Shown: piece after piece, positions 4,135 through 29,603 of the stretch
Layout: each line of letters opens with the position of its first letter
Position numbering within the stretch: the first letter of the stretch is position 1
Virus record (IMG/VR): IMGVR_UViG_3300021138_000049
Location: 1-44,943 of that record
Direction: 5' to 3' (one strand)
Origin: a virus
DNA: 44,943 nt
Made by a program: the position numbers and the translations under genes
Notes under the pieces: model-generated
The model's database searches: none
What the model was told of the DNA's origin: nothing
The model's input: only the letters and a program-made list of their open reading frames with translations

Positions 4135-5832
4135 TTAATTGTTATAAACCCACTTTCTTTGTCCACAATCCCATACTCTAAAAGAGTCCATATCTTCTGT
4201 CATAATTTGAACCTCTGTTTTATTTTTATCATATCCTCTTTTAATTAAAAGGTCTTTCCTGTAATTATACCTATGAAACCTAACACCATCTATAACCCAA
4301 TAATAATTAGGATTTGAAATTGATTCAAATTCAAATCCAAGACTGGAATATAAATCACCACTAAATTTACTTATTTCAGAATATGAAATAATTTTCTTTG
4401 AATTAACTTCTTTTAAAAAGTGTTTGAATAATCTTTGTGCACCACCTACTACATTTATATTTAATTTAGAGCAAAATCTAGCTAGTTCAAATACATTATT
4501 TTCTTTTTTAAATCCCATTGGAATTCTTAATTCTCCGAAAGTCATTAAACTAACTAATTCATTTTTATAATATAATCCGTATTTATATTTTGAAGCAACA
4601 TATCCCTGTATATGATTTTCTTCAAGAAAATCTCTACAATCTTTAGCAGATACATTTCTAATTTCGCATTTCCTGGCGTATATTTTATCCTTATTAGCCT
4701 GTATCCTATTATTAATAATAGATTTGATAATCTCTTGTTTATATAACCAGTCATCTTCCCATATAAAGATTAAATCAATTCCTAAAGATTTTGCTTCATC
4801 ATATTTATCAATATGATAATTAATTGGTTTATTTTCCTCCGAATGCCACCACAATCCATTAAATTCAAATCCCAATTTTAATTTAGGTAAATAAATATCT
4901 ATTTCTTTTCCATTTAAGATCCTCTCATTTGATAGAATCTCATCTTGATAAACTTGTTTGATATGATGTAACAACGAAACTTCCATACCAGATATCCCGG
5001 AATATATTGGATTACAAATTGTGCATAATATAGTATTTAATTTATTTCTGCTATATAACATATGCCTATTTATAGTATAAGTATGTCCATTTTTACACTT
5101 TGCCTTAATTATTCTTTTATCATAATCTATATCCAATAGTTCATCATTTTGACTATTTAATTTATTAATTACCAATTCTTTTAATAAATTATTTTTGGTT
5201 ATTTTTATTTTTTCAATTGATTTTATATGAATATCCTTATTCATCCATGGATGTTCAACTCCATATTTTTCTAATGATGTCTTTTTATAGGATTCTTTAT
5301 AACCACTATTTTTAAATGATTTAATTCTTTTGCTTAAAATTTCTTCACTTTTAGATGGACTATCAACGCCATAATTTTTCAATAATGTTTTTTTAGATTT
5401 ATATTGTATTAGTTTATTAGACATCGGTGAATTACCACCATATTTTTCATTATTACTTTTTACTATTTTATTTTTAATAATTTCAGACTCAGCTGGCGTT
5501 TTTGTTCCAAATTTAGCAATCGATTTTTCTCGTTTTATTTTTTTAATATTCGGGTCTGAAGAAATACATCTAACGCTACAATATTCATAATATCCAATGG
5601 TTGAATTTTTATAATTAACGGAGTTATTACAATCTGGATTCTTACATAAAACTATATTAGATATATTATTAATAGCATGATATATTTTTTGTTTAAAAGG
5701 TAAATCTTCCAAATTATGTTGTTGGCAAAATTTTATGATATAATCATACTCTTCTGTATAGTTTTTTATTACAAATGTCTCGCGAGACATTTTACCAGTT
5801 GGGTCAGAGTTTTTAAATACTTCTAAATTCAT
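4135..5832 (-). CDS. Homing endonuclease 2: YGV repeats, Vsr-like nuclease, GNAT-like C-terminus
   Basis: A 565-residue paralogue of the endonuclease at 789. The N-terminus has a zinc-type cluster (CKNPDCN, then YCSVRC). At least four KYGV/NYGV-type repeats follow (KYGGNSPMSN, NYGVDSPSKSEE, KYGVEHPWMN). CTICNP precedes the nuclease core EIDIYL, FEFNGLWWHSEE and FIWEDDW. The C-terminal GNAT-like region has LEENHIQGYVASKYKYGLYY, LVSLMTFG, VVGGAQRLFKHF and a terminal GYDKNKTEVQIM. It lies between the sheath gene and the flavokinase-like gene and is insulated from the sheath by a terminator. It has its own late-type motif 19 bases before the ATG. Confidence 0.85.
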   Translation of the reverse strand: MNLEVFKNSDPTGKMSRETFVIKNYTEEYDYIIKFCQQHNLEDLPFKQKIYHAINNISNIVLCKNPDCNNSVNYKNSTIGYYEYCSVRCISSDPNIKKIKREKSIAKFGTKTPAESEIIKNKIVKSNNEKYGGNSPMSNKLIQYKSKKTLLKNYGVDSPSKSEEILSKRIKSFKNSGYKESYKKTSLEKYGVEHPWMNKDIHIKSIEKIKITKNNLLKELVINKLNSQNDELLDIDYDKRIIKAKCKNGHTYTINRHMLYSRNKLNTILCTICNPIYSGISGMEVSLLHHIKQVYQDEILSNERILNGKEIDIYLPKLKLGFEFNGLWWHSEENKPINYHIDKYDEAKSLGIDLIFIWEDDWLYKQEIIKSIINNRIQANKDKIYARKCEIRNVSAKDCRDFLEENHIQGYVASKYKYGLYYKNELVSLMTFGELRIPMGFKKENNVFELARFCSKLNINVVGGAQRLFKHFLKEVNSKKIISYSEISKFSGDLYSSLGFEFESISNPNYYWVIDGVRFHRYNYRKDLLIKRGYDKNKTEVQIMTEDMDSFRVWDCGQRKWVYNN

Positions 5833-16233: not shown

Positions 16234-16845
16234 TTATCCTTTATTTTTCAAATATTTATCAATCATATCATTCAAGCCCCTTGAATCCATAATTTTAGTA
16301 TCTTCTTTCTCTTTTTCAGTCTCACTTTGTATAGATTCAACATTGGATAACTCATTTAAACCTAAATCTTTTCTAGTTTCTTTATAGAACTTTTCGAGCT
16401 CAGTTCTTTGTGTAGATGAGAATTTAGAGTTTTCTCTAATTTGTGATACGGTTTGGTTTATAACTTCATGCATTCTCGCACTATTATCGCCGTTATCAAC
16501 CTGTCTTAGTTGTGTAAGGAAGTTTTTTCTTGTCATTTTAGAAAGAAATATAGTCTCGGCATAAACTAAAGCATCTTCTTTCATTTTATTTTTAATATAA
16601 GGATGCTCAACTACCTTTTTAGCGTCTCCTAAATATAAATCTACTAGACTCTCTAATAAATCCATAGCTTGCTCACTAGACTGCGTTAAGTCAGCATCAT
16701 AGTCATAAATTTGAATTTCTCCTAAATCAGGTAGATCATCTTTTTTAGCCAGATACTTTGAAATATCTATATCTTTTGACCCATCTTGAATTCTTTCAAA
16801 CTCATTTTGAAGCTCATTTATTTTCTGCTCTTTCTTATCACTCAT
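16234..16845 (-). CDS. Putative small terminase subunit (gp16-like position)
   Basis: A 203-residue protein starting at MSDKKEQKINELQNEF. A longer frame to 17001 would run into the terminase gene on the other strand and adds a Phe/Tyr-rich shadow sequence, so it is rejected. The protein is largely helical: Gln/Glu-rich start, central DALVYAETIFLSKMTRKNFL, then SRGLNDMIDKYLKNKG at the end. It lies 48 bases from, and divergent to, the large terminase gene, where a small subunit would be expected. T4 gp16 is 164 residues. No conserved signature was recognised, so the call rests on position, size and helical content. Confidence 0.45.
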   Translation of the reverse strand: MSDKKEQKINELQNEFERIQDGSKDIDISKYLAKKDDLPDLGEIQIYDYDADLTQSSEQAMDLLESLVDLYLGDAKKVVEHPYIKNKMKEDALVYAETIFLSKMTRKNFLTQLRQVDNGDNSARMHEVINQTVSQIRENSKFSSTQRTELEKFYKETRKDLGLNELSNVESIQSETEKEKEDTKIMDSRGLNDMIDKYLKNKG

Positions 16846-16893
16846 TGGAGAATCTAATTTTACAATATATATTGAAAATGATTCTATTCCTTT

Positions 16894-17418
16894 ATGCCAG
16901 CAGTAAAAGAAGCTCAAGAAAAGAAATTTATATTCAATAGTAAAAATGTCCAAGAGATAACTGACCAAATTAACGATGGATACATCATTAAAAGGTTTCA
17001 AAATCCATGGTTTAAAAATGAAATCGGTGTTAGAAGAAGTGGTCTTACTTTTGCCTTAATCGATGATGAAATAGAAGAATATATTAAATGTAAATTAGAT
17101 ATTCATTATTTCGCTGAAAAATATTGTCGAGTTAAAACAGAAGATGGAAGTATTAATAATATTAAATTAAGAGAATATCAAAAAGATATCTTAGACTTAT
17201 ATCATAACGGAAGATTCAGTATCTTATGTGGAAGTAGACAAATTGGGAAATGCTTCTCATTTAATACGTTGATAGAGTTGAAAAGTGGTCAAATATATAG
17301 ATTCGGAATCCTTTACTACCAAATTCTTTCGGAGATTAGGCCACTAAATTTATTAGAATATTTTAAAATTAAATTGTATAACGCACTATACCTATTAGAC
17401 AGGAACCAAAAATTTTAA
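16894..17418 (+). CDS. gp17: Large terminase N-terminal part with split-intein N-fragment
   Basis: A 174-residue protein. Residues 1-119 are the start of the ATP-driven packaging motor: CKLDIHYFAEKYC, the adenine-recognition segment KLREYQKDILDLYHNG, and the Walker A loop up to GSRQIGK. At Cys120 (base 17251) the sequence becomes an intein: CFSFNTLIELKSGQ is block A, with Cys1 as the splicing nucleophile. Fifty-five intein residues follow before the stop at 17416. The matching C-fragment is at 18394. The joined junction would read GSRQIGK-T, a perfect GxxxxGKT. Known atypical split inteins with a short N-part include AceL-TerL, also in a phage terminase. No separate Shine-Dalgarno site is visible. 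Confidence 0.9.
   Translation: MPAVKEAQEKKFIFNSKNVQEITDQINDGYIIKRFQNPWFKNEIGVRRSGLTFALIDDEIEEYIKCKLDIHYFAEKYCRVKTEDGSINNIKLREYQKDILDLYHNGRFSILCGSRQIGKCFSFNTLIELKSGQIYRFGILYYQILSEIRPLNLLEYFKIKLYNALYLLDRNQKF
17251..17415 (+). other. Intein N-fragment (block A)
   Basis: Codes for residues 120-174 of the upstream terminase frame. Cys1 follows Lys of GK. Block A is CFSFNTLIELKSGQ. No block B is present in this piece; it lies on the C-fragment, which makes the split site atypical. The last residues (about DRNQKF) are probably cassette-derived, because the stop codon lies inside the promoter of the inserted endonuclease. Confidence 0.85.
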
Positions 17419-17424
17419 TATATA
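17413..17424 (+). promoter_or_regulatory. Late-type promoter motif inside the broken intein
   Basis: Exact TTTTAATATATA, 13 bases before the endonuclease ATG. The stop codon of the terminase N-part (TAA, 17416-17418) is part of this motif, which shows that the cassette brought its promoter into the intein. Confidence 0.6.
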
Positions 17425-17437
17425 AAAATAAAAAACC

Positions 17438-18421
17438 ATGGAATTTGAAATAATTGATAACTATGATGTAGTAACCTGTCGTATATGTGGTAGAAGATCC
17501 AAAAGAATATATGGATTACATCTAAAATATCACAATATAACATCTGAGAAATATAAAGAATTATATCCAGGTGCGCCATTGATGGCAAAAGTTGATACTG
17601 AAAAAATGGGCAAGCATATGAGAGATGATAAATATAAAAAAATGTTTCGTGATATGTATGTTGGTGATAAAAATCCAAATCATAAAAGTAGAACTACTGA
17701 AGAGGAAAGAAAGTCAAGAAGTCCATTTTCAAAAGATTTTACCAAATATAAAGAAGTTGAAGATAAAGATGAGGTTGTAAAAAGCTTTGCTAAAAAAGCT
17801 TTGAAAGATAGAGTATCACCCTTACAAAAGGAATATTATTTAAATAAAGGATTCACTGAACAGGAATCCTTAGAAATTTTATCAAATAGACAAAGGACAT
17901 TTAGTTTAGAAAAATGTATTGAGAAATACGGTGAGGAAAAAGGACTGAAAAGATGGAAAGAAAGACAACATCTATGGCAAAAGAATTTATTGGAAAATGG
18001 AAATATAAAATGTGGATATTCAAAAATTAGTCAAGAACTATTTTATAATATCATAAATAATTACGATGTTTCTGAATTGAAAGATGTTTACTTCTCTACA
18101 AAGAATAGTGAATTTTATATCTCAGTAAAAGAAAAAGGATTTTTTGTATATGATTTTTGTGACAAGAAAAGAAAAAAAATTATTGAATATAATGGTGATT
18201 ATTATCACGCTAATCCAATTATGTTCAATGAATATGATAAGCCACATCCTTATTTGAAAGAAAAGGGTCCGACATCAAAAGAAATATGGAACAAAGATAA
18301 GTTTAAAATTGATATTGCAAATCAAAATAACTTTGAAGTTCTAACAGTTTGGGATTCTGAGTATAGAAAAAATAAAAATAGTGTAATAGACAAATGTTTA
18401 ACTTTTTTAGGAATAATTTAA
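17438..18421 (+). CDS. Homing endonuclease 3, inserted inside the terminase intein
   Basis: A free-standing endonuclease of 327 residues. Residues about 12-45 form a Ros/MucR-like zinc finger: CRICGRR, then LHLKYHNITSEKYKELYP. A helical linker region follows (EKYGEEKGLKRWKERQHLW). The C-terminal 120 residues are a Vsr-like nuclease: KKIIEYNGDYYHANP supplies Glu, Asp and His, and VLTVWDSEY the terminal motif. It lies between the two halves of the terminase intein, in a different frame, with its own promoter. Its last 28 bases overlap the start of the terminase C-part. Vsr/EDxHD-type nucleases are the type described with split-intein fractured genes. It differs in its DNA-binding part from the other endonucleases here. 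Confidence 0.85.
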   Translation: MEFEIIDNYDVVTCRICGRRSKRIYGLHLKYHNITSEKYKELYPGAPLMAKVDTEKMGKHMRDDKYKKMFRDMYVGDKNPNHKSRTTEEERKSRSPFSKDFTKYKEVEDKDEVVKSFAKKALKDRVSPLQKEYYLNKGFTEQESLEILSNRQRTFSLEKCIEKYGEEKGLKRWKERQHLWQKNLLENGNIKCGYSKISQELFYNIINNYDVSELKDVYFSTKNSEFYISVKEKGFFVYDFCDKKRKKIIEYNGDYYHANPIMFNEYDKPHPYLKEKGPTSKEIWNKDKFKIDIANQNNFEVLTVWDSEYRKNKNSVIDKCLTFLGII

Positions 18422-18843
18422 TTAAAATATTATATCTCATAATAGAAGTTATAGAAAAGATAGAATATAGTAAAGTAGATATTGACGAGAATGATATTAA
18501 TAAAAAAATATTAAATACAATATCCAACTTAAATTTATCTGTAAAGTCAGATTCAGGTTGGGTAGAAATGACCGATATACATATTACACAGCCATATAGA
18601 CAGTATTATTTAATGTTGAGTAATGGATATTATTTAAATTGTGCCGATAATCATATAGTATTCGATGAAAATCATAATGGTGTATTTGTAAAAGATTTGA
18701 AAATTGGAAATGAGGTTCAAACCAATATTGGATTATCCAAAGTTATATCAGTTGAGAATAGTGGATTTAAAGTTTCTATGTTTGATAGTACTATTAATCA
18801 TAAGGATCATAGATATTATACAAATGGTATATTAAGTCACAAC
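18394..18843 (+). other. Intein C-fragment (blocks B, F and G)
   Basis: Codes for residues 1-150. The first 15-45 residues have no counterpart in the AceL-TerL C-part as I remember it and probably belong to the region that lay between blocks A and B before the break. The final His149-Asn150 plus Thr151 give the standard branch-resolution residues. Frame phase equals that of the N-part. Confidence 0.85.
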
Positions 18844-20646
18844 ACAGTATCAGCAGCAATCACCATGCTTCACTTTATCACATTCAATAATGATAAAAAT
18901 ATTATGATTGTGGCAAATATTGCAAACACCGCCATAGAAATTATAGATAAAATTAAGTCAATCTATATACAATTACCATTCTTTTTAAAAGTTGGTATTA
19001 AAAACTGGAACCAAAGATCCATCATTTTTGATAATGGATGTAGAATTAAAAGCTCTGCTAGAACAAAAACACCAGCTATTGGTTTTACCATTGACTTTCT
19101 TTACATGGATGAATTTGCACACATTCCACCCAATATAATTGAAGCTTACTATACCGCTGCATTCCCGACTGTATCAGCTATAGAAAACTCTAAAATTATT
19201 ATCACCTCTACTCCTAACGGCATGAATTTATTTTATAGATTATTAACTGATGCTGAAAGACCAGAGGGAGACCCATTAAGAAGTAACTACCGTGCAATGA
19301 GAGTTTACTGGTATCAAGTTCCTGGAAGATTTGTTACCTATTATAGACTAAATCCTCATAAAATGCACGAATATGGTGTTGCTAAAGAACAAATATTAGA
19401 ACAAACTCAACAAGTATTTGGAAGTCTGACCAAAGTTGAAATGAAATTTTATAGTGATACACAAAAGAATGTTATATTAGTTTATAATAATGATGCTTGT
19501 AGTGACCAAATGGCGAAAGCATTTCAATTTGTAGATTCAAATGGATTAGAAGTTCCAATTCAAGCAATTTCTGAAACAACAACCTGGAAAGAAGAAGCAA
19601 TCAAAGATATAGGTGGTGAAGATGCATTTAACCAAGAATATGGTCTTAGATTTATTAATTCAAGTAGATCATTATTGAATGAGGCAACAATAGAGGGATT
19701 ACTAAATAATAAAAAGAATTATGAATGTGAACAAATTTATGAATTTGATAGAAAATTGAAATTCTCTTATAAGGATTTAAAATGGATTGACGATGATGAA
19801 GTGTTTATGCCGATACATAGAAAAATTATAAGAGGCGTTCTATCAGTCGATATATCAGAAGGTTTGGGGCAAGACTATTCAATTATTAATATATTTAAAC
19901 TTGCACCAAAGTCTAAGGAAATTATTGAACTACAAAAGCATACTTATACTAATATGAGTGACTTCTTTACTTTAGTTCAAATAGGACTGTTTAGGTCTAA
20001 CTTAGTATCAGTTAAACAACTTGCAGAAATCTTTTACCTATTGGTATTTGAGTATCTAAACTATGATAATTTTAAAGCGGTATTGGAATTAAATAACTAT
20101 GGAAATGAATTTTTAGCTCATTTACCACACGTATTTGATAGTAATAACAACTATGGCTCAAGTATATTCTTCAAGTATAAACACAAAGCAGATGCTATTG
20201 AAGAAAGAGTTGGATTAAAAATCACAGATAATAAAAATTTACTAGTTAAAGAATATCAAGATGCTATGGATAAAAAGAAGTTTGTAATTACAAACGAAGA
20301 TAACATTAGAGAGATTACTACCTTTGTTAAACATATCACATCTGCTGGAAATATAAGATATGCAGCAGATATCGGAAATGATGATACCACTATGTCCTTA
20401 GTTAATGCCTCAAGTGTTTTTGCTAAACATGATTTTAGACAGATGTGTGAAGATTATGCGGCTACTCTCTTAGATACAGAAACAAGAAACTATTTTAATC
20501 TTATCTTGAAAGAAGCAGACTTTTCAGAAGCAGCTGACTATTCATCTATTATTAATATCAATAAACAAAGAAAGATGATGAAACAATTTCAAAATCATGT
20601 TTATAATAACGGTAATCAGTATTTTGGTGGTAATTTTAAATTATAA
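18394..20646 (+). CDS. gp17: Large terminase C-terminal part with split-intein C-fragment
   Basis: A 750-residue protein. Residues 1-150 are the intein C-part: block B at about 78-91 (LNCADNHIVF, His87), KDLKIGNEV, block F around 127-142 and block G TNGILSHN ending at Asn150, followed by Thr151. The C-extein (151-750) completes the terminase: TVSAAITMLHF continues Walker A, FLYMDEFAHI (235-244) is Walker B with its catalytic Glu, IITSTPNGMN is the coupling motif, and the nuclease domain starts with LSVDISEG (Asp486) with later acidic residues. Joined to the 119-residue N-extein it gives 719 residues, near T4 gp17 (610). The ATG lies inside the endonuclease 3' end. It ends flush against clpS with no terminator. 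Confidence 0.9.
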   Translation: MFNFFRNNLIKILYLIIEVIEKIEYSKVDIDENDINKKILNTISNLNLSVKSDSGWVEMTDIHITQPYRQYYLMLSNGYYLNCADNHIVFDENHNGVFVKDLKIGNEVQTNIGLSKVISVENSGFKVSMFDSTINHKDHRYYTNGILSHNTVSAAITMLHFITFNNDKNIMIVANIANTAIEIIDKIKSIYIQLPFFLKVGIKNWNQRSIIFDNGCRIKSSARTKTPAIGFTIDFLYMDEFAHIPPNIIEAYYTAAFPTVSAIENSKIIITSTPNGMNLFYRLLTDAERPEGDPLRSNYRAMRVYWYQVPGRFVTYYRLNPHKMHEYGVAKEQILEQTQQVFGSLTKVEMKFYSDTQKNVILVYNNDACSDQMAKAFQFVDSNGLEVPIQAISETTTWKEEAIKDIGGEDAFNQEYGLRFINSSRSLLNEATIEGLLNNKKNYECEQIYEFDRKLKFSYKDLKWIDDDEVFMPIHRKIIRGVLSVDISEGLGQDYSIINIFKLAPKSKEIIELQKHTYTNMSDFFTLVQIGLFRSNLVSVKQLAEIFYLLVFEYLNYDNFKAVLELNNYGNEFLAHLPHVFDSNNNYGSSIFFKYKHKADAIEERVGLKITDNKNLLVKEYQDAMDKKKFVITNEDNIREITTFVKHITSAGNIRYAADIGNDDTTMSLVNASSVFAKHDFRQMCEDYAATLLDTETRNYFNLILKEADFSEAADYSSIININKQRKMMKQFQNHVYNNGNQYFGGNFKL

Positions 20647-20928
20647 TTAGGCATTTTCCATACTAACAGTAAGATTAGCACCTTTTAACTTCTTATACAT
20701 TTCAGTAATAGTCTCTTTATCACCTCTTTTAACATCACATTTACCAGTGAAGTGAACAAGATGAGCACACTGAGAAGCCTGTTCTGGTTCATGACCACAA
20801 ACTTTAATTAAACACTCAATTACCCAGTCAAAAGAATTATAATCATCATTGTGTAACCACAAAATAAATGGTGAATTAAGTTTATCTTGTAAATCAGTTT
20901 GTTGTTGTTTTTTAGTTATCGTTGGCAT
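20647..20928 (-). CDS. clpS: ClpS-like N-degron adaptor
   Basis: A 93-residue protein with the complete ClpS fold pattern. ClpS delivers proteins with destabilising N-terminal residues to the ClpAP/ClpCP protease. The substrate-pocket motif is present as LHNDDYNSFDWV (Asn27, Asp28, Asp29), matching NDDYTPMEFV of cellular ClpS, and the pocket His appears as LVHFTG (His59). The C-terminal strand LTVSME is also typical. The Met of the cellular pocket is Phe here, which may change specificity. It is the last gene of a minus-strand trio with a zinc-ribbon and a HAD protein, starting 6 bases after the previous stop. The trio is driven from a host-type promoter, so probably early. No Clp ATPase lies in the window; it would act on the host protease. 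Confidence 0.85.
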   Translation of the reverse strand: MPTITKKQQQTDLQDKLNSPFILWLHNDDYNSFDWVIECLIKVCGHEPEQASQCAHLVHFTGKCDVKRGDKETITEMYKKLKGANLTVSMENA

Positions 20929-20934
20929 ATATCA

Positions 20935-21177
20935 CTATTTATTAAATTTTATTTTTTTTCCTTTAGAGTAAATTAAAACTGAATCTATTTTTTTATCTCT
21001 AATATCATTTTTATGCTTCGACATCCAAGCATATACATATCCAGTTGAGCTTGTTCTCATAATATGTATAGGTTCCTGTTTACAATTAGGACATTCCTTA
21101 CAATTATAATAATCATCGGTTTCCCATTCATGTTCACAATGGTAACACCACATATGTTCAGATATCTTAGGTAACAT
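20935..21177 (-). CDS. Zinc-ribbon protein
   Basis: An 80-residue protein with two CxxC pairs, MWCYHCEHEW and CKECPNCKQ, spaced about 15 residues apart, followed by a basic tail (YVYAWMSKHKNDIRDKKID, KGKKIKF). It is a typical small zinc ribbon that could bind nucleic acid or a host protein. It starts 1 base after the HAD gene stop and ends 6 bases before clpS, so the three form one operon. No family name can be given. Confidence 0.6.
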   Translation of the reverse strand: MLPKISEHMWCYHCEHEWETDDYYNCKECPNCKQEPIHIMRTSSTGYVYAWMSKHKNDIRDKKIDSVLIYSKGKKIKFNK

Positions 21178-28086: not shown

Positions 28087-29568
28087 CTAACTATTTATTT
28101 CAAATTTTATTTTACCACAATCCCATATTTTATAAATATTATTTTCACTCATTATTTCCGATTCCGATTTTGATATATCAAATCCCATTTTTTTTAGACT
28201 CTTTTTTTGAAATCCCTGTTTATTTCTTCTTAATCCCTTTACATTATATTTATAATCCGGCTTTATTATAGATGATATCTTAAAATTATTTTTTAAATAT
28301 ATATCACCACAAGACCAGGAAATGTCAGCATATGTTATTATTCTATCAGGATTTTTTTTGGATATAAAAAATTTTAATAATTTGGAAAATCCACCAATTA
28401 CACTATAATTTATCAAAGAGCAAAACCTAGATAAATTCCATCCATTTTTACTCATTTTAAATCTACCTTCTGATTTATCAAACGTCATTAAACTAACAAG
28501 TTCACCATTATAGAATAATCCAATAGAATATTTATTAGATACATATCCTTGGATATGATTTTTATTTAAAAATTCTTTAGAAATTTTATTATCTACTTCA
28601 GATACATGACATTTTCTTCCATAAATACGATTATCTGTGACTCCTAGTAAATTACTTATTTGACTTTTTAATATTTCACTTTTATTTAACCAATCATCCT
28701 CCCAAATATGGATAATTCTAATTCCCTTTGCTTTAAAAAACTCTGATTTCATCTTATGATAATTTTTATCCAAATATTCTTCTGAATGCCAGTATAACCC
28801 ATTGAATTCAAATCCCAATTTTATATCTGGAAGATATATATCAATTTCAAGTTTATCTTTAAAGTTTCTTATAATATCTTTACTATAGATAGATTTTATA
28901 AATTTATAAAATTCTGATTCTTTAATAGATGATGAATCTCCTATTGGGTTACAAATTGTACATATTGGAATATTTGATTTTTTTCTAGTATAATAATTAT
29001 CATTTTTTATTTCAAATGTGTGATCAAAATTATTATCACATTTAAAAAGAGATGTATTATCCTTTATATAATTTATATAATTAACATCACTTGATATTTT
29101 TGATGTTTTTAATCTTATTTCTTCTGATTTTGATATATGCTCAACTCTATATTTCTTTAATAACGTTTGTTTTGATTTTTCCTTAAATATCTCGGATTGT
29201 TGTAAAAATTCAACTCCATATTTTTCTAAATTTGTTAATTTAGTCTTTTCTTGAGTCTCCTTTAGTTGCATATGACTAATAACACCAATATTTTTAATAT
29301 TTGTCTCTTTAGCCTTATCAGATCCACAAATTTTTGAACAGGCATATTTATTACCAACTGAAATATTTCTATAATATTCTCTATAAGTAATTTCCACCTC
29401 TTTATTACAATAGTCACATATTACGTTTATTAGTTGCCTTGATCCAGTATTTAAATGATTAATATTCACATCAATAAACTCACCAGTTATATCATATCCA
29501 AGTGATTTAAAATATGGTAACTTTCTACACCCTTTAGTTGGAATTTTAATAAAATTATTTTTTAACAT
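28087..29568 (-). CDS. Homing endonuclease 5: YGV repeats, Vsr-like nuclease, GNAT-like C-terminus
   Basis: A 493-residue protein when started at MLKNNFIKIP. A longer frame begins at 29592, but its first eight codons are the late-type promoter itself, so the second ATG, 4 bases after the motif, is preferred. The N-terminus has a different module (KLPYFKSLGYDITGEFIDV, CDYCNKEV), shared with the fragment at 39187. Repeats such as KYGVEFLQQSE and KYRVEHISKSEE follow, then CTICNP, LEIDIYLP, FEFNGLYWHSEE and HIWEDDW, and the GNAT-like end (NKNHIQGYVS, YNGELVSLMTF, VIGGFSKLLKFF, TYADISWSCGDIY). It lies beside the gp55-like gene. Confidence 0.85.
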   Translation of the reverse strand: MLKNNFIKIPTKGCRKLPYFKSLGYDITGEFIDVNINHLNTGSRQLINVICDYCNKEVEITYREYYRNISVGNKYACSKICGSDKAKETNIKNIGVISHMQLKETQEKTKLTNLEKYGVEFLQQSEIFKEKSKQTLLKKYRVEHISKSEEIRLKTSKISSDVNYINYIKDNTSLFKCDNNFDHTFEIKNDNYYTRKKSNIPICTICNPIGDSSSIKESEFYKFIKSIYSKDIIRNFKDKLEIDIYLPDIKLGFEFNGLYWHSEEYLDKNYHKMKSEFFKAKGIRIIHIWEDDWLNKSEILKSQISNLLGVTDNRIYGRKCHVSEVDNKISKEFLNKNHIQGYVSNKYSIGLFYNGELVSLMTFDKSEGRFKMSKNGWNLSRFCSLINYSVIGGFSKLLKFFISKKNPDRIITYADISWSCGDIYLKNNFKISSIIKPDYKYNVKGLRRNKQGFQKKSLKKMGFDISKSESEIMSENNIYKIWDCGKIKFEINS

Positions 29569-29572
29569 ATTA

Positions 29573-29584
29573 TATATATTAAAA
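29573..29584 (-). promoter_or_regulatory. Late-type promoter motif before HEG 5
   Basis: Exact TTTTAATATATA on the minus strand, 4 bases before the chosen ATG. Confidence 0.5.
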
Positions 29585-29603
29585 TGTGGCAACTCCCTTT
29601 AAT

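Follow-up and report, generated by a model that had tools for sequence, protein, structure and literature searches.

Organization of the split terL locus

The window analyzed here, the complete 44,943-base virus fragment IMGVR_UViG_3300021138_000049 of IMG/VR, comes from a huge bacteriophage and encodes its T4-type large terminase (TerL) in two separate pieces, with the gene of a free-standing endonuclease between them. The upstream piece, terL-N (16894-17418, plus strand), encodes 174 amino acids (aa) ending in SILCGSRQIGK/CFSFNTLIELKSGQIYRFGILYYQILSEIRPLNLLEYFKIKLYNALYLLDRNQKF, where the slash marks the border between the terminase and the 55 intein residues of CFSFNTLIELKSGQIYRFGILYYQILSEIRPLNLLEYFKIKLYNALYLLDRNQKF. 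The downstream piece, terL-C (18394-20646, plus strand), encodes 750 aa, the first 150 of which end in YTNGILSHN/TVSAAI. The two pieces share one reading frame, from which that of the endonuclease gene differs, but in-frame stops close the stretch between them, so that the two open reading frames (ORFs) could not be joined by readthrough. The same arrangement is present in independent metagenome assemblies (L116, 99.91% DNA identity over 13.8 kb; L115, 99.4%). Stop-codon recoding was also considered, and it is ruled out by the TAA found here, by TAA, TAG, or TGA found elsewhere, and by an intervening frame full of stops. An earlier note, made from the letters alone, had described the locus as a fractured large terminase gene whose Walker A loop holds an atypically split intein, with an endonuclease between the halves. 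Sequence and fold now back this description, as do the empty sites and the purifying selection found in relatives. The features are collected in Table 1, in which IntN and IntC denote the N- and C-terminal halves of the intein and dN/dS the ratio of nonsynonymous to synonymous substitution rates.

Table 1. Coordinates of the split terL locus, its promoter-like motif, and the adjoining gene in the window
Feature	Position	Strand	Basis or remark
N-extein of TerL, 119 aa, ending at Walker A GSRQIGK	16894-17250	+	Adjoins C-extein directly in ~50 distinct empty-site relatives
IntN, 55 aa: Cys1, block A (17251 to ~17340), predicted helical tail (~17344-17415)	17251-17415	+	Sequence; dN/dS in relatives
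TAA stop ending terL-N	17416-17418	+	TAA, TAG, or TGA at the equivalent point across lineages
TTTTAATATATA, probable phage promoter element ahead of the endonuclease gene, overlapping the terL-N stop	17413-17424	+	Motif excess
Free-standing homing endonuclease (327 aa) with a Ros/MucR-like zinc finger at its N terminus and a Vsr/EDxHD-like nuclease domain at its C terminus	17438-18421	+	Profile and fold matches
28-nucleotide overlap of endonuclease 3' end and terL-C start, possible translational coupling	18394-18421	+	Similar overlaps in relatives
IntC, 150 aa: predicted helical lead (~18394-18477), then blocks B (CADNH), F, and G, terminal SHN	18394-18843	+	IntC profile
C-extein of TerL: Thr+1, remaining ATPase, nuclease domain	18844-20646	+	Pfam Terminase_6N, 3.4e-15
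ClpS-like protease adaptor, convergent with terL-C	20647-20928	-	Adjoins terL also in L044 and L052
Copies of TTTTAATATATA in the window	84, 13182, 14826, 17413, 23600, 23728, 29573 (minus strand), 32743, 34150, 35772, 35833		Exact matches

Intein features and the position of the split

The order of motifs is that of an intein. As the earlier note had read it, GSRQIGK is followed by a cysteine and intein block A, the frame closing at a stop after 55 intein residues, and terL-C resumes with blocks B, F, and G ending in HN, then threonine and the rest of the terminase. Cys1 is invariant across 12 IntN sequences; all of 12 IntC sequences have the block B His87 and nearly all have SHN, and the IntC motifs ADxH, block F, and SHN/T are present, so that the element has both a nucleophilic first residue and the C-terminal HN. 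Because NCBIfam and Pfam alone barely detect the intein halves of the window, profile and fold searches were needed. Run against the PDB, a profile of the 12 IntC sequences found gp41-1, VidaL, and Cat (4e-9 to 2e-8), all of them inteins, and Pfam Intein_splicing was matched by all 22 rows of our alignment A6 at E ≤ 0.1 (best, 3e-8), while IntN alone as a PDB query gave no match. The contiguous versions of the intein that the earlier note had proposed to look for exist in two relatives, L142 (194 aa) and L170 (197 aa), in which the whole element lies in a single reading frame. The AlphaFold2 model of L142 (predicted template modeling score, 0.70) has VidaL (2e-8), Cat, and gp41-1 as its best PDB matches, and its top 50 matches are inteins or intein-like (Hint) domains, pointing to a Hint fold. 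Sequence and model support the assignment of the element as an atypically split intein, from which we infer that it splices.

The break precedes block B, the sequence CADNHIVF belonging to IntC, and does not fall at the usual place after block B, in agreement with the earlier note. This position between blocks A and B is that of atypically split inteins, but IntN, with 55 aa in the window and 42 to 69 aa across the family, is outside the 15 to 37 aa published for natural atypically split N-parts (PMC13014065). The greater length is due to an extra helix-like tail (consensus LTFLEKIKIxLYxIL), and IntC likewise opens with a helix-like lead (consensus KKILIxIIYxLIELIEKIEYRN). In the model of the contiguous L142 both stretches form one long predicted helix (residues 37 to 68), so that the natural break would fall inside that helix; the tail of IntN and the lead of IntC may hold the two halves together.

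Mobility, endonuclease loss, and dispersal in relatives

The terminase set comprised 153 distinct terminases, with states assigned by script: 59 were uninterrupted at the site, 53 were split with an endonuclease, and the rest were in other states. The script's 59 include AceL-type terminases, and the safe figure for empty sites is therefore about 50; these terminases read SRQ.GK-T without a break, the element being absent precisely and in frame. In one pair of relatives (L035 and L065) the flanking DNA is 97.4% and 96.2% identical and a 2.2-kb insert is present only in L035; a second near-identical pair of occupied and empty sites (L285 and L296) is ~94% identical. On the terminase tree, built with FastTree and including long branches, the site changes between empty and not empty 20 times, with at least 12 changes forced by well-supported branches. 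Two relatives have intein halves with a synonymous divergence (dS) of ~0 and exteins with a dS of ~0.6 (L159 and L166), and another two have near-identical terminase exteins and strongly diverged intein alleles (L021 and L046). The same split, with intact halves, has been kept in dozens of lineages. Together with the purifying selection described below, these comparisons support a split intein that is both mobile and functional. In a further pair, L131 and L149, IntN is nearly identical (dS 0) and the dS of IntC is 0.83, and the two halves thus seem to be exchanged separately.

The intein cores and both helical stretches are under purifying selection. Among the relatives, dN/dS is 0.14 for the IntN core, 0.18 for the IntN tail, 0.17 for the IntC lead, and 0.15 for the IntC core, with 0.06 to 0.09 for the terminase exteins and 0.21 for the endonuclease. 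The separate Vsr-like endonuclease of the earlier note is borne out by fold comparison, with modest scores: the model of its C-terminal domain finds Vsr as the best Foldseek match (1cw0; probability, 1.00; E, 0.035) and matches I-Bth0305I (3r3p) with a probability of 0.98 and an E of 0.11, and the profile match to 3r3p has an E of 0.14. All 77 endonuclease relatives found in IMG/VR adjoin pieces of the same split terminase.

The earlier note had also given the endonuclease a promoter of its own, which is plausible. The window has 11 exact copies of the motif TTTTAATATATA where 0.24 would be expected, a significant excess, and most of them lie immediately ahead of genes. In 22 of 73 distinct relatives the corresponding position has a motif with at most one mismatch from it, versus 0 of 365 control stretches, the controls being coding sequence. 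From these counts, TTTTAATATATA is probably a promoter of the phage's own; a sigma-70 consensus scan gave no excess. No motif of this type was found for terL-C in the window, and because of this absence and of its overlap with the endonuclease gene, terL-C is probably expressed from the endonuclease's message. A clear Shine-Dalgarno sequence was not found at the gene starts of the window.

Read from their sequences, the relatives form a series from contiguous to fractured, endonuclease-lost, and dispersed. In relatives free of the endonuclease (L135, L127, L042, and L122), 18 to 284 nucleotides separate the halves; in L286 the gap of 28 nucleotides retains a fossil of the endonuclease 3' end, which shows that the endonuclease was lost after the split. 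Some relatives carry a different large endonuclease between the halves, often on the opposite strand. The window itself encodes three large related free-standing endonucleases (PHROG 3339/559; 789-2366, 4135-5832, and 28087-29592), and similar-looking ones are found between the terL halves of other relatives. Within one clade the distance grows in steps, from N-half, endonuclease, and C-half in direct succession (L218 and L221), through the addition of a second endonuclease-like gene (L211), to the addition of other genes as well (L231, 4.5 kb). In the same clade as L218 and L231, the halves of G014 are 12.3 kb apart with an endonuclease beside each, and those of LR756501, a 735-kb phage in the clade of G014, are 12.4 kb apart without an endonuclease. 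Synteny between G014 and LR756501 extends over 12 genes, with terminase halves of 72 to 77% identity, and because of this synteny the dispersal in LR756501 is not an assembly error; a 735-kb phage genome has been called the largest described (PMC7162821). In G009 the halves are separated by ~67 kb; in G008 and L017 they are on opposite strands, at distances of ~22 kb and 3 kb, respectively. No further N-part or C-part of TerL was found in G008, nor in G009 except for a weak unrelated match. L181 has ~10 genes upstream of terL-C in common with G009, and terL-N is likewise absent there.

Proposed mechanism, competing explanations, and significance

We consider it highly probable that the Walker A loop of TerL holds a mobile, atypically split intein, that the separate TerL halves trans-splice into a complete P-loop, and that the endonuclease homes the cassette. 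TerL-N-IntN and IntC-TerL-C would be made as separate proteins and would associate, probably via the helix that ends IntN and the helix that starts IntC, to form the Hint fold; splicing via Cys1, Asn150, and Thr+1 would then join lysine to threonine, giving the uninterrupted GSRQIGK-TVSA P-loop. As Walker A itself is interrupted, neither precursor would be expected to act as an ATPase. Intein-free terL would be cut by the endonuclease, probably expressed from its own promoter, and the cassette would be copied into it. Sequence shows the makeup of the locus, its empty sites, its mobility, the purifying selection on it, and the survival of the split where the endonuclease is gone or the halves are dispersed; from these we infer trans-splicing, helix pairing, cleavage of the empty site, and the dependence of packaging on splicing.

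Several observations weigh against this reading. In the window's copy the IntN tail shows no clear amphipathic pattern, and because amphipathicity is weak in most copies, the pairing of the helices is put forward only as a suggestion. The L142 model has low confidence at residues 1 to 20. The C-terminal splice residues are LN/T in LR756501 (L112) and SQ/T in LR756500 (L006) instead of HN/T, and splicing may consequently be slow or absent in some alleles. The window has one terL-C but covers only 44.9 kb, and a second terminase could be encoded elsewhere in the genome.

The possibility of a second terminase bears on another reading, in which the insertion of an endonuclease has broken terL and left it to decay, the real terminase lying elsewhere, or in which the assembly is wrong. 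The fragmentary window and the numerous endonucleases of AT-rich phages would suit it, but three assemblies agree, dN/dS is low in the exteins and in the intein halves (0.06 to 0.09 and ~0.15), and dozens of lineages maintain the same split with intact halves, which leaves decay very improbable. An intact second terminase was looked for in eight larger or related records, and partial or ATPase-only paralogs were all that was found; in the records LR756501 (735 kb) and LR756500 (462 kb), the only further terminase-like ORFs of substantial size are shorter ATPase-only paralogs with a defective Walker A. These ATPase-domain paralogs, of 390 and 270 aa (L113, LR756501 697.5-704.5 kb; L006, 5937-6749), have SRQMGI for SRQ.GK and should not hydrolyze ATP, since the Walker A lysine is replaced; G001 has a further weak terminase paralog of 256 aa.

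The split could instead be bridged at the RNA level, by a self-splicing group I or II intron in the endonuclease region whose cis-spliced mRNA would encode a contiguous intein or terminase; group I introns that carry endonucleases and interrupt terL, with splicing in cis, have been reported from the Jug phages (PMC12363816) and from phage ICP1 (PMC10448857). Rfam, however, gave no match up to E = 1 at 16500-21000 of the window and none at the gathering score in five relative loci, only ~20 nucleotides are available upstream of the endonuclease ORF, and its 3' end overlaps IntC. In relatives the halves are 12 to 67 kb apart or on opposite strands, and for the latter cis-splicing is impossible; we hold an intron to be a very remote prospect. 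That the halves are separately encoded, at times far apart, would also accord with a two-subunit terminase working without joining of its fragments. Yet the break lies within the P-loop, between the Walker A lysine and the next threonine, and the catalytic residues of the intein are maintained under selection; an unjoined pair would have no reason to retain Cys1, HN, and the Hint fold, and such a terminase is accordingly most unlikely.

The split TerL intein resembles several known systems in part. In 2009, Dassa and coworkers reportedly described fractured genes in which split inteins occur together with EDxHD (Vsr-like) homing endonucleases; like these genes, the present locus has a host gene broken within an intein, a free-standing endonuclease between the halves, a phage origin, and a Vsr-like nuclease fold. 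In those genes the split reportedly falls at the canonical point, behind block B; here it precedes block B, the host gene is terL with the P-loop as the site, and bare and dispersed stages occur as well.

AceL-TerL was found at 99% identity in L316. The earlier note had named it a near precedent; the terminase host and the split before block B hold, but the insertion site is another one and IntN is shorter. AceL-TerL is inserted after the ATPase motifs (FQTEFE/C...HN/CEFLG) and the window's intein at GSRQIGK/C and HN/TVSA, and because the positions differ, the latter is not a same-site member of the AceL-TerL allele family. With AceL-TerL, GOS-TerL, and the consensus Cat intein it shares the terminase host, the short N-part, the split before block B, and an IntC core of ~100 aa, and CatC is among the best structural matches. 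IntN, however, is 25 to 37 aa in those inteins against 42 to 69 aa here, nothing in CatC corresponds to the 30- to 40-residue helical lead of IntC, and the +1 residue is Cys in AceL and Thr here. The earlier note had also pointed to the joint presence of a split terminase intein and an endonuclease in one phage genome; this combination is not unique, as endonucleases lie between the halves in three AceL relatives (L318, L323, and L326). The AceL-TerL family has a series of its own, with contiguous (L321 and L327) and bare split members (L316 and L319) and those three, whose endonuclease-like gene is of another type.

The gp41-1 intein is canonically split. It shares the Hint fold with the terL intein, as does VidaL, the best PDB match of the contiguous relative, but neither matches the helical pair, and IntN of VidaL has 16 aa (PMC13014065). 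The TerL inteins of Ackermannviridae (Kuja, VP-1, and SP-9-14) have the same GK/T insertion point and a homologous IntC, but they are single polypeptides without an endonuclease or the helical pair. The cyanobacterial DnaE split intein has its halves at distant loci without an endonuclease, and the dispersed halves of LR756501 and G009 resemble this arrangement; DnaE is a different host protein with a canonical split, whereas the terL family still shows intermediate stages.

Split inteins in fractured genes with Vsr-like endonucleases are thus already known, as are TerL inteins with an atypical split (AceL and GOS). New here are the P-loop site, the longer IntN with paired helical extensions, and the series from contiguous to dispersed halves; in the open-access literature searched, no report was found of a terminase P-loop split intein, of helical extensions that form a pair, or of a terminase with its halves dispersed.

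Some relatives carry another intein in TerL, contiguous and with a LAGLIDADG-like core, in the terminase nuclease domain (C-extein, about residue 517; GNDDC...VVHN/C; L035, the L044 family, L052, and L181). It is additional to the split one in L035, the L044 family, and probably L181, whose TerL would because of the two inteins need two splicing reactions; it is absent from L065, near-identical to L035.

For the annotation of huge phages, the findings are a warning that half of the gene can be missed in terL annotation and in terL trees. The family also comprises many natural split inteins with built-in helical extensions, which, if they splice as proposed, are possible ligation tools. Because the P-loop of an essential packaging motor is incomplete until the halves join, these phages would depend on trans-splicing to produce virions. 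It is conceivable, although we think it rather unlikely, that the split now serves as a working control of packaging, with terL-C expressed from the endonuclease promoter or from a distant locus and motor assembly licensed by the meeting of the halves, and that the dispersed, endonuclease-free state has been fixed and domesticated in the largest known phages. The stages found among the relatives (empty, contiguous, bare split, fractured with an endonuclease, endonuclease lost with a fossil left behind, and dispersed over 3 to 67 kb, even on opposite strands) are rarely seen for any split gene, and they make it testable how dispersed split inteins, such as that of cyanobacterial DnaE, arose.

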